The notes beneath the pieces were generated by a model, which saw nothing but the letters and a program-made list of their open reading frames with translations, was not told the DNA's origin and searched no databases. Positions 18,714 through 21,592 of a stretch of 64,000 bases of DNA are shown piece after piece. Made by a program: the position numbers and the translations under genes. The DNA is taken from positions 1 through 64,000 of the forward strand of contig CALLWB010000052.1 in assembly GCA_938016265.1 (NCBI GenBank), in the 5' to 3' direction. The number at the start of each line of letters is the position of its first letter. The stretch's first letter is position 1. This stretch comes from an uncultured Saprospiraceae bacterium (GTDB lineage: Bacteria; Bacteroidota; Bacteroidia; Chitinophagales; Saprospiraceae).

Positions 18714-19014
18714 ATGATCAAACAGATCGCATTTATAGTTGCGATTTTGCTCCCTGGCTTTAAATGGCTCAAAAGATTTACAAGTACTGGCAACGAAAAA
18801 TTTTCCAGAGTGGAAAAGGATATTGAATGAATCTGGCAATCAAAAGGTAACAATTAAAGAACTTGCCCACCTCAACCATGTATTTCAAAATTGTGAAACT
18901 GGTTTGCCTGATGAATACGAATCAATAAAAGAGTCGTTTTCCCAAAGTACTATGAAGGAAATAACTGGTTGGATAAAAAACAATTACAATTATCGCTGCT
19001 CATCCAATAACTAG
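18714..19014 (+). pseudogene. Small secreted protein interrupted by a one-base frameshift
   Basis: ATG 18714 begins a typical signal peptide, MIKQIAFIVAILL, but this frame then runs into unlikely sequence and stops at 18830. The +1 frame, blocked upstream by TAG at 18736-18738, continues ALNGSKDLQVLATKNFPEW and on for about 90 residues to TAA. Removing one C from the CCC run at 18752-18754 would give a continuous signal peptide ...VAILLLALNGSKD and one intact secreted protein of about 99 aa. The gene is therefore either a recent pseudogene or affected by a sequencing error. An alternative is a TTG start at 18739, which would lack the signal peptide. The protein family is not recognised. Confidence 0.55.
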
Positions 19015-19061: not shown

Positions 19062-19089
19062 TGCGTCCTTTTCTCCAAAACTACGTGTA
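19062..19089 (+). promoter_or_regulatory. SigZ-type promoter, copy 1 (ahead of sigZ)
   Basis: TGCGTC (19062-19067), 16 nt, CGTGTA (19084-19089), 31 nt before the sigZ ATG. The same two hexamers at exactly the same spacing, with a T-rich start of the spacer, occur before the next two genes. This predicts that the sigma factor transcribes its own gene. The CGT in the -10 is common for extracytoplasmic-function sigma promoters. Confidence 0.75.
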
Positions 19090-19120
19090 GTACAAATGTA
19101 GATCATTTAAAAAAACAAAA

Positions 19121-19663
19121 ATGGGAGATATTTCAGATTTGTGGATAAAATTTAATGCGGAGATTCGCCGGTACATTGTTCGCCGAATTGGAGATAAGGC
19201 AGAGGTCGATGACATTGTTCAGGATGTATTTTTAAAAATCATTAAAAATCGGCAAAAAATACAAACTGTTGAAAATGTCCAGGAATACCTATATAAAATG
19301 ACCCGAAATACGATCGCCGATAATTTCAGAGTAAAGAAAATAAAGTTGGTTGAATTGAAGGGCGTAGAGCGGACAGAGGAAGAAGCTGATGAAAATTTGA
19401 ATACGCTAATATCGGAGTGCTGCATTAAATTTTTCATCGACAAATTGCCTGAAAAATACAAGGAGGCACTCACCTACACAGAATTAGAAAAACTATCTCA
19501 AAAAGAATTTGCAGAAAAAGCCAACATCAGTTATTCCGGAGCGAAGTCCAGAGTACAACGAGGAAGAGAAAAACTTAAAGATCTTCTAAATGAATGCTGC
19601 CAATTTGAGAGCGACAAATATGGCAATTTGCTGGATTCTGAGGCGCCCAATTGTGGCTGTTAA
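19121..19663 (+). CDS. sigZ: RNA polymerase sigma factor, SigZ type
   Basis: This encodes 180 aa. Sigma region 2 occupies about residues 5-75 (AEVDDIVQDVFLKII, VQEYLYKMTRNTIADNFR). Region 4 occupies about residues 105-160 (LPEKYKEALTYTELEKLSQK, then ISYSGAKSRVQRGREKLKDL). The C-terminal tail is LNECCQFESDKYGNLLD followed by NCGC, a cysteine-rich extension seen in SigZ-like factors. No anti-sigma gene is adjacent on either side. The CC and CGC cysteines could sense thiol oxidants or metals directly (inference). The neighbours are two tiny cysteine-pair proteins under an identical promoter, which suggests a dedicated regulon. Confidence 0.85.
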   Translation: MGDISDLWIKFNAEIRRYIVRRIGDKAEVDDIVQDVFLKIIKNRQKIQTVENVQEYLYKMTRNTIADNFRVKKIKLVELKGVERTEEEADENLNTLISECCIKFFIDKLPEKYKEALTYTELEKLSQKEFAEKANISYSGAKSRVQRGREKLKDLLNECCQFESDKYGNLLDSEAPNCGC

Positions 19664-19673
19664 ACCCAATGCA

Positions 19674-19701
19674 TGCGTCTTTTTTTCACTTAGCACGTGT
19701 A
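19674..19701 (+). promoter_or_regulatory. SigZ-type promoter, copy 2 (ahead of the Cys-rich lipoprotein)
   Basis: TGCGTC (19674-19679), 16 nt beginning with T7, CGTGTA (19696-19701), 43 nt before the ATG at 19745. It is identical in both hexamers to copy 1. Confidence 0.75.
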
Positions 19702-19744
19702 GTTAATAGATCAATTAGATTTTTTAACTAAAAATTCTCTTAAA

Positions 19745-19939
19745 ATGAAAAAATTAATTTTTTGCTCCTTTCTCTTTTGTGCAACTTTTTTTCAAAGCTG
19801 TTCTGCAATCAGGTGCTGTGCAACGGAGCCTTGTGAGCCTGAAGTTTGTTGCCCTGGAAACGCTGAATGCTGTGCGGTTTCCAATACTTCAACTTCTTCT
19901 GAACTCCTAGGACAAGCTACTGTAAATAAAGACGAGTAG
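19745..19939 (+). CDS. Tiny cysteine-rich lipoprotein of the SigZ module
   Basis: This encodes 64 aa. The signal MKKLIFCSFLFCATFFQSC ends in a lipobox with Cys19. The mature part then reads CSAIRCCATEPCEPEVCCPG followed by NAECC: eight further cysteines, six of them in adjacent pairs, within 30 residues. The remainder is Ser/Thr-rich and ends in an acidic tail. No known domain. Closely spaced cysteine pairs suggest soft-metal or metalloid binding, or a redox buffer, at the membrane surface (inference). It is controlled by a promoter like that of sigZ and closed by its own terminator. Confidence 0.75.
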   Translation: MKKLIFCSFLFCATFFQSCSAIRCCATEPCEPEVCCPGNAECCAVSNTSTSSELLGQATVNKDE

Positions 19940-19987
19940 GCTTGCAGATGGCCAAACTTATCGTTGTAACTCAAATCATTTTTATTC

Positions 19988-20020
19988 AAAAAGCCTCTTA
20001 CAAAAAGGGGCTTTTTGTTT
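19988..20020 (+). terminator. Terminator after the Cys-rich lipoprotein
   Basis: AAAAAGCC (19988-19995) pairs with GGCTTTTT (20009-20016), followed by GTTTTC. It separates the lipoprotein transcript from the third SigZ-type promoter. Confidence 0.75.
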
Positions 20021-20053
20021 TCTGCCTCTTCTTTTGAATTATATTTTCAAAAT

Positions 20054-20081
20054 TGCGTCTTTTTTCACCATTCAGCGTGTT
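20054..20081 (+). promoter_or_regulatory. SigZ-type promoter, copy 3 (ahead of the 59-aa Cys-pair protein)
   Basis: TGCGTC (20054-20059), 16 nt beginning with T6, CGTGTT (20076-20081). It differs from the other two copies in only the last base of the -10, and lies 47 nt before the ATG at 20129. Confidence 0.72.
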
Positions 20082-20128: not shown

Positions 20129-20308
20129 ATGAAATCTATAAAAAAAGAATCAGGGAAGATTGCACCAAGTAAAGGAACATGCTGTGAAACTTCCACAAAC
20201 AAAGAAACAAATAGTAAGGTATGTTGCCTGCCACCTTCAGATGGCTCTTCCTGCTGCGATAAAACGGAATCAAAAGAAGAAAATGCGAAAAAATCAGGCT
20301 GCTGCTAA
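20129..20308 (+). CDS. 59-aa protein with four Cys-Cys pairs, SigZ module
   Basis: ATG 20129 to TAA 20306-20308 encodes 59 aa, too short for most gene finders. It has no signal peptide. Four CC pairs are spaced through a lysine/serine-rich, low-complexity chain: GTCCETST (18-19), KVCCLPP (32-33), SSCCDK (42-43) and the extreme C-terminus SGCC (58-59). It is a probable cytoplasmic counterpart of the Cys-rich lipoprotein at 19745, and the last residues resemble the cysteine tail of SigZ. The SigZ-type promoter at the right distance and the exact reading frame of the cysteine pairs support it as a real gene. Function is unknown; metal or metalloid binding or thiol buffering is inference. Confidence 0.7.
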   Translation: MKSIKKESGKIAPSKGTCCETSTNKETNSKVCCLPPSDGSSCCDKTESKEENAKKSGCC

Positions 20309-21037: not shown

Positions 21038-21592
21038 ATGAAGAATGTTTTGACCGGGACTATATTTATGGTTTTTATTTTAAGCATTTTTTCTTTTTCC
21101 ACCAAGCAAACTCTTGACATCGAGCAAGGTAATGTAAAATGGTATACTTGGCAAGAAGCAGTCGAAGCATCTAAAAAGGAAAAGAAAAAAATCTTTATCG
21201 ATATCTATACGGATTGGTGCGGCTGGTGCAAACGAATGGACAAAGCAACGTTCGAAGATCCTGAAGTCGCCAAATTTCTAAACGAAAACTTCTATCCTGT
21301 AAAAATGAATGCAGAAATGAAGGATGAAATCGTTTATAACAACCATACCTTCAAATTCGTAGCTTCAGGAAGAAAAGGTTATCACCAACTGGCAGCGGCC
21401 TTATTGGATGGTCGCCTCTCCTACCCGACTACCGTTTTCCTAAATGAAGAATTTGAAATCATGCAGCGAATTCCAGGATTTATGGATGCCAATCAATTTA
21501 GTATGGTAATGGAATATCTCGCCGGAGACTATGACAAAAAAATATCCTGGGAAGAATTTCAGGTCCAATACGCAGAACGAAAAAAATTATGA
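21038..21592 (+). CDS. Secreted thioredoxin-fold protein (CGWC)
   Basis: This encodes 184 aa. An N-terminal signal (about 1-21) is followed by a thioredoxin-like domain of the thioredoxin_7 type: WQEAVEASKKEKKKIFIDIY, then active site DWCGWCKRMD (Cys61, Cys64), then a cis-proline region YPTTVFLNEEFE. Such periplasmic proteins reduce or isomerise disulfides. A strong terminator follows at 21623. The upstream region has two TAAATTTG and one TATATTTG motifs, any of which could be the -7 element. Confidence 0.88.
   Translation: MKNVLTGTIFMVFILSIFSFSTKQTLDIEQGNVKWYTWQEAVEASKKEKKKIFIDIYTDWCGWCKRMDKATFEDPEVAKFLNENFYPVKMNAEMKDEIVYNNHTFKFVASGRKGYHQLAAALLDGRLSYPTTVFLNEEFEIMQRIPGFMDANQFSMVMEYLAGDYDKKISWEEFQVQYAERKKL

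Follow-up and report, generated by a model that had tools for sequence, protein, structure and literature searches.

The 64,000-nucleotide stretch of DNA analysed here (hereafter the window), from an uncultured Saprospiraceae bacterium, carries a gene for an ECF sigma factor resembling SigZ, followed by two genes for very short Cys-rich proteins. The initial annotation had proposed that a bipartite element occurring before each of the three genes is a promoter recognised by SigZ, which would thereby activate itself and two tiny thiol proteins. This raises the question of whether SigZ is indeed the reader of the element, and what kind of regulon lies behind it.

The sigZ gene and the three promoter copies

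The sigZ gene (19121–19663, forward strand) encodes a 180-aa protein that matches the NCBIfam SigZ profiles and has the layout of an ECF (group IV sigma-70) factor, with sigma-2 and sigma-4 only (Pfam Sigma70_r2 and Sigma70_r4_2). Neither curated cut-off is reached (TIGR02959, 1.7e-49, 167.9 bits against 168.65; NF007215, 8.5e-53, 179 bits against 212). SigZ is the best family for the protein by a wide margin, the next family scoring 84.8 bits, and positions 1–165 of 170 and 4–173 of 181 of the two profiles are covered, which amounts to the full length including the C-terminal Cys region. The same two profiles define the SigZ of B. subtilis, which scored above cut-off in a control search, whereas that of the window narrowly misses both cut-offs.

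The window SigZ has a C100–C101 pair in the linker between sigma-2 and sigma-4, a C159–C160 pair after sigma-4, and a C-terminal C178-G-C180. In an alignment of 69 SigZ rows, C159 is present in 62, C160 in 63, C178 in 57, C180 in 53 and the linker residue C101 in 43, being missing in the other 26 (being distant, partial or broken, eight loci, L071, L073, L141 and L146–L150, were left out of this alignment and of the 63-row tree described below). None of the seven window neighbours of sigZ scanned with Pfam and NCBIfam matched an anti-sigma family, and no anti-sigma product name occurs in the annotated stretches of nine plasmid loci, as judged from product names only. An AlphaFold2 model of the window SigZ (3 sequences) had a mean pLDDT of 66, with most of the tail below 50, and given these low values no conclusion was drawn from it. 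Just 5' of sigZ, the open reading frame (ORF) at 18739–19014 matches only the C-terminal end of the EstD esterase family (profile positions 347–420 of 421, 4.9e-07) and looks like a gene remnant.

All three copies of the element are on the forward strand and are exact, with a spacer of 16 nt in each. The first (19062–19089, TGCGTC-N16-CGTGTA) lies 31 nt 5' of the sigZ start codon, and has equivalents upstream of sigZ in relatives; the second (19674–19701, TGCGTC-N16-CGTGTA) lies 43 nt 5' of the start codon of a 64-aa ORF; the third (20054–20081, TGCGTC-N16-CGTGTT) lies 47 nt 5' of the start codon of a 59-aa ORF. The T-rich beginning of the spacer described by the initial annotation is present in all three as TGCGTC[C/T]TTTT, and the T run 3' of TGCGTC is part of the conserved element. 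The accompanying statement that nothing else is conserved was roughly right, as a three-way alignment is invariant at TGCGTC-nTTTT and at CGTGT with scattered identity elsewhere. A spacer of exactly 16 nt holds for the window, but relatives have either 15 or 16.

In 200 dinucleotide-shuffled windows the exact motif did not occur (mean 0, maximum 0). Across the organism's own genome (7.44 Mb, 146 contigs), with spacers of 15–17 allowed, four exact matches were found versus two for the reversed control; the fourth, on contig 53, lies inside an ORF of ~520 codons, has no T tract, and was set aside. With one mismatch allowed, the genome gave 22 matches versus 18 for the reversed control. A loose pattern with two mismatches was rejected, as it gave 13 genome matches versus 21 for the control, and five matches in the window that were equalled in 31 of 100 shuffles. 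Since loose matches stay at control or shuffle level, what stands out is the cluster of exact copies alone, and with a tight pattern the three window sites were the only ones found in the genome.

The 64-aa protein (19745–19939, forward strand) has ten cysteines and, by eye, a signal-like N-terminus; it was earlier annotated as a putative lipoprotein. It matched no Pfam or NCBIfam family, and Cys-rich proteins with similar N-termini occur at two other SigZ loci (L066 and L058). The 59-aa protein (20129–20308, forward strand) is Lys-rich with four Cys-Cys pairs, and likewise has no match in Pfam or NCBIfam. Between the two units lies a hairpin resembling an intrinsic terminator, followed by TTTTCT (19987–20017, forward strand); the region contains two terminator-like sites versus a shuffled mean of 2.7, so that the hairpin is weak evidence alone. 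A thioredoxin-like protein near the Cys-rich genes (21038–21592; Pfam Thioredox_DsbH, 1.1e-17) has no SigZ-type site.

Conservation of the promoter and covariation with SigZ

To place the element in a wider context, a protein search of 198 genomes of the order and a TIGR02959 profile search of 395 genomes of the phylum were used to find SigZ-like genes. The best-scoring matches were used as loci: 23 from the order and from related-locus searches (window included; the search from the window gave three relatives) and 49 from the phylum, with longer stretches fetched for some. One locus (L116) was excluded as a copy of the window. Three of 74 BLAST places, with products below 100 aa, were dropped for a failed start setting or a short piece. 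These were L124, a fragment in L141, and the second of the SigZ-like genes in L056; L124 does carry a site upstream of sigZ. A strict rule (TGC[AG]TC-N14..17-CGT[CG][TC]N, with at least three T in the first five spacer bases) was then applied within 3 kb of the SigZ-like gene (1.5 kb for shorter stretches), covering 71 genes and 354 kb.

The scan returned 47 sites in the sense orientation, three of them the window's, versus one antisense, while dinucleotide-shuffled loci gave a mean of 0.16 and a maximum of 1 in 50 shuffles. The single antisense site lies upstream of a MATE gene divergent from sigZ (L151, genome G423). Among the 68 SigZ-like genes with at least 150 nt upstream, 31 have a sense site by the strict rule, and 17 have one no more than 300 nt upstream of the set start; starts in some loci were set too far upstream, so that sites in L061, L117 and L118 were counted inside the ORF though they lie 5' of a later ATG. 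In relatives the sites are mostly 5–100 nt upstream of start codons. No strict site was found on either strand of 11 loci of other ECF sigma genes (38 kb).

Scans of whole genomes gave a picture that depends on position. In the order (198 genomes), a degenerate pattern had 29 matches versus 40 for the reversed control; 15 of the 29 are at SigZ loci, and of the other 14, 10 overlap an ORF that starts with ATG and spans 80 codons or more. The pattern is thus not enriched genome-wide relative to the control, and its special feature is its position. A tighter pattern in the phylum (395 genomes) had 23 matches versus 10 for the control, and 18 of the 23 fall in 13 of the 33 genomes with a SigZ above 150 bits: 16 within 0.8 kb of the SigZ gene, one at a distance of 4.5 kb and one on a different contig. 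The expectation that the motif would recur upstream of sigZ and Cys-pair genes in related genomes was therefore borne out, by both the order-wide matches at SigZ loci and the strand bias. Random occurrence throughout the genome, which would have counted against the proposal, was not what was seen: the only other exact copy in the organism's own genome is intragenic, and the sites of relatives cluster at SigZ. On these sequences, the consensus is TGCRTC-YTTTT-N10/11-CGTCTW in most SigZ lineages examined and CGTGTW in the clade of the window. As a separate observation, one further site of the consensus type (L093, G110:C395:3207–3233) lies in no ORF of 80 codons or more and precedes, by 252 nt, what by eye is a pseudouridine-synthase-like ORF; that genome is 82% complete and its best SigZ-like match is weak (6.0e-11).

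A SigZ tree of 63 rows, of which 35 have a site by the rule used at that stage, showed clustering of the site-bearing rows (12 changes versus a shuffled mean of 20.9, with none of 500 shuffles as low). The midpoint root has site-bearing SigZ proteins on either side, and the deep branches are weakly supported. One seemingly site-less clade has ArsI downstream, and reading of the ArsI upstream regions revealed TGCGTCTTTTT-N11-CGACTA. Other variants are TGTATC with [AG]GTCT upstream of CxC peptides, and TGTGTC with AGACT upstream of a thioredoxin-like protein. A widened rule, made after these variants had been seen, gave 50 sense and three antisense sites in 63 loci. With all sources combined, 55 of the 63 tree rows have a site, 20 of them beyond the initial 35 and coming from the widened rule, other scans or inspection by eye, and eight have no acceptable site.

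The –10 half of the element varies with the sigma protein. Residue 56 is Tyr in five rows. Four of the five carry sites, in each case including one whose –10 hexamer has G at position 4, and two of the four carry a C-type site as well; in 51 rows with Trp, the base is C. Residue 97 ties with residue 56 in tracking this change. Residue 63 is Arg or His in nine rows, namely the eight CGAC rows and L131, where CGACG is seen by eye; as N63 is retained in three AGACT rows, this residue does not rank in the top six columns for tracking the T-to-A change. The covariation amounts to about two clade-level events, with classes assembled by hand. Sigma region 2, where residues 56 and 63 lie, contacts the –10 element. 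The co-occurrence of the promoter with SigZ genes, together with a –10 half that shifts from one sigma clade to the next, makes it most likely that SigZ is its reader.

Genes behind the sites

The genes downstream of the sites include sigZ itself, ArsM, ArsI, Cys peptides, PhzF, thioredoxin, MATE and HMA genes. Sites lie upstream of ArsM in seven loci (L053, L056, L059, L062, L102, L103 and L136), of ArsI/CadI in two (L072 and L113), and of PhzF-like proteins in three (L056, L067 and L133), with a variant site found by eye in a fourth (L128). Assignments were made on N-terminal fragments of 80–130 aa (ArsM, NF008823, 1.5e-45; PhzF, TIGR00654, 1.3e-25; ArsI_CadI, NF041414, 7.9e-18 and 4.2e-23). 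Longer downstream proteins matched MATE, HMA, thioredoxin and PAP2, the last at 27.7 bits with a cut-off of 27.2. One HMA-domain protein (G296:C9, L169) is encoded far from sigZ, with a site upstream that overlaps two predicted ORFs. PhzF, PAP2, an aspartyl protease and DUF5916 are not obviously related to arsenic.

Peptides of 26–64 aa with CxC or CC motifs follow a site in L023 (two peptides), L054, L066, L111, L114, L115, L117, L118, L123, L125–L127 and L134, and in several of the peptide-bearing loci the Cys peptide lies between the site and sigZ. Short ORFs (26–48 aa) with CxC repeats, resembling metallothioneins, are found beside sigZ in L117, L118, L125–L127, L134, L135, L137, L143 and L144. 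The proposal that SigZ drives the element is thus supported by sites upstream of sigZ and of Cys peptides across relatives, but its restriction to tiny thiol proteins was probably too narrow. With the same site upstream of ArsM and ArsI in other genomes, the regulon is probably one of metalloid detoxification.

A tblastn search of the 71 loci found ArsM in 9, ArsI in 15 and PhzF in 4, all in the sense orientation and no more than 2.5 kb downstream of the sigZ start (a weak antisense ArsM match in L150 was excluded). In raw numbers, ArsM or ArsI follows sigZ in 24 of the 71 loci. In the window, there is no ars gene next to sigZ. The organism's own ArsM is encoded elsewhere in the genome (G000:C89:18288–19118, L170, 303 bits), the 200 nt before it contain no site of the SigZ type, and the arsenic role at the window locus hence rests on relatives.

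SigZ-like loci on plasmids were also analysed, a thirteenth, which was a second near-identical Priestia locus, being left out. Three strict sites were found in the 12 loci, compared to a shuffled mean of 0.02 and a maximum of 1 in 300; the strict site was not found in the other nine, and the SigZ-like loci of Vibrio, Photobacterium, Rhodococcus and Nonomuraea have no site of the strict form. The Ideonella dechloratans plasmid has the order ArsI, two ArsC, ACR3, sigma, permease, thioredoxin, ArsA, with the site TGCATCTTTTGGGGCGGTCCTGCGTCTT just after the sigma gene and upstream of the permease. This permease has sub-cut-off similarity to SaoE or Cu/Zn efflux transporters. In Sulfuricella denitrificans, the plasmid order is ArsM, thioredoxin, ArsC, sigma, TolC/RND, and TGCATCCTTTTGGCCTGTCGTTCGTCTC follows the sigma gene. 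Both of these betaproteobacterial ars-cluster sites are of the type TGCATC-N16-CGTC, and the Sulfuricella and Ideonella sigma factors just miss the TIGR02959 cut-off of 168.65 (161.9 and 161.2 bits, respectively). The SigZ of Priestia megaterium is above both SigZ cut-offs, and its site lies upstream of a divergent aldo/keto reductase. The Arenibacter and Hymenobacter loci, both from Bacteroidota, have variant sites. Taken on this comparison, the predicted promoter, its position and its regulon are well supported.

A candidate metalloid-responsive sigma factor

The B. subtilis SigZ promoter is reported to have a C at –34 (PMC6713349), and if TGCGTC is aligned with the SigW element TGAAAC (an alignment made here), the TGC of the window sites falls at –36 to –34, which fits. 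No function is given for SigZ, one of the ECF sigma factors of B. subtilis, in a 2023 table (PMC10141391). Metal-activated ECF sigma factors are known in the form of CorE and CorE2 of Myxococcus xanthus (former ECF44, now ECF238; PMC8999054). For CorE, the C-terminal Cys-rich domain and a linker CxC are described as essential for activity, and ECF287 and ECF288 are mentioned as possibly CorE-like on account of their C-terminal cysteines (PMC8999054). CorE shares with SigZ a linker Cys and a Cys-bearing C-terminal extension (in most SigZ rows a CC pair and C-terminal Cys), which makes it, by Cys motifs, a working model for SigZ, and ECF287 and ECF288 resemble SigZ in their Cys-rich C-terminal extensions. 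The Cys-rich C-terminal extension of CorE is longer than that of SigZ. The linkers differ too, being CxC in CorE but CC (100–101) in the window SigZ and a single Cys at 101 in most relatives (43 of 69).

With ArsM, ArsI/CadI and Cys peptides behind the same promoter, the regulon most likely responds to arsenite or another thiophilic metal. We hypothesize that arsenite or another thiophilic ion would be sensed directly by the SigZ cysteines, namely the linker Cys present in most members, the Cys pair after sigma-4 and the C-terminal Cys, with no anti-sigma factor involved. SigZ would then read the three window sites and switch on its own gene and the two short Cys-rich proteins, autoregulation would amplify the response, and the two peptides may bind or chelate the metal(loid), the first acting in the envelope and the other in the cytoplasm. 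Across Bacteroidota, the same pair of sigma factor and promoter would switch on ArsM, ArsI/CadI and metallothionein-like Cys peptides. Overall, it is quite likely that SigZ is an ECF sigma factor that regulates its own gene and serves the response to arsenite or other thiophilic metals, with sensing probably by its own cysteines. The wider proposal, that SigZ is a one-component metalloid-sensing sigma factor in several phyla, with binding of arsenite or methylarsenite to cysteines of the linker and C-terminus turning on sigZ, ArsM/ArsI and thiol peptides through a promoter conserved in Bacteroidota, Betaproteobacteria and Bacillota, stands at about even chances in our judgement.

The signal could instead be general thiol stress or copper, cadmium or zinc stress, with the promoter still belonging to SigZ and the arsenic genes being just some of its outputs. 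The metallothionein-like CxC peptides, the HMA protein of G296, the thioredoxin and the MATE pump behind sites all agree with this, as do the lack of an ars gene at the window locus and the name ArsI/CadI, which covers cadmium too; the presence of ArsM or ArsI at 24 of 71 loci, and the two named plasmid loci being ars clusters, count against it, and we regard it as a real possibility that falls short of an even one. A different objection concerns the element itself, as ars genes are also controlled by ArsR-type regulators, and an ArsR-like ORF (by reading of the sequence) lies near sigZ in L111, so the 28-bp element might be the operator of an ArsR-like repressor. However, the element is non-palindromic, with two blocks at ECF spacing (15–16); it is found mostly 5–100 nt upstream of start codons with a 47:1 strand bias, the –10 half differs from one sigma clade to the next, and the TGC start agrees, by the alignment made here, with the C at –34 described for the B. 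subtilis SigZ promoter (PMC6713349). A repressor operator is thus very improbable. Least probable of all, to the point of being hardly credible, is that the three copies are a local duplication of one promoter-gene unit with no wider meaning for a regulon: promoters 2 and 3 do share T-rich spacers and both precede short Cys-rich proteins, but the flanks beyond the two blocks align poorly, the proteins they lead to are not alike, and the element stands ahead of unrelated genes at independent loci throughout the phylum.

Control of arsenic resistance by SigZ would have its output genes (ArsM, ArsI, ArsC and ACR3) in common with ArsR-controlled ars operons, but would be positive, acting instead of or besides ArsR repression. 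In the literature searched, with most subscription journals outside its reach, nothing was found linking SigZ to arsenic or a sigma factor to an arsenite methyltransferase, and for the B. thetaiotaomicron regulatory map (PMC12596196) a term search of the main text returned no SigZ and no words beginning with arsen-. The regulator is of a known kind, an ECF sigma factor, with a predicted target set that is undescribed within the literature searched and a metalloid signal that is probable. For the little-understood SigZ family, the comparison yields a promoter, a regulon and a testable candidate signal. If the proposal is true, arsenic detoxification would be under positive control at the level of the sigma factor, and a function would be suggested for the orphan SigZ of B. 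subtilis. In a fair number of Bacteroidota, ArsM and ArsI may be controlled by a sigma factor and not by ArsR repression alone, and the unannotated Cys-rich peptides of 26–64 aa are suggested to be part of metalloid defence.
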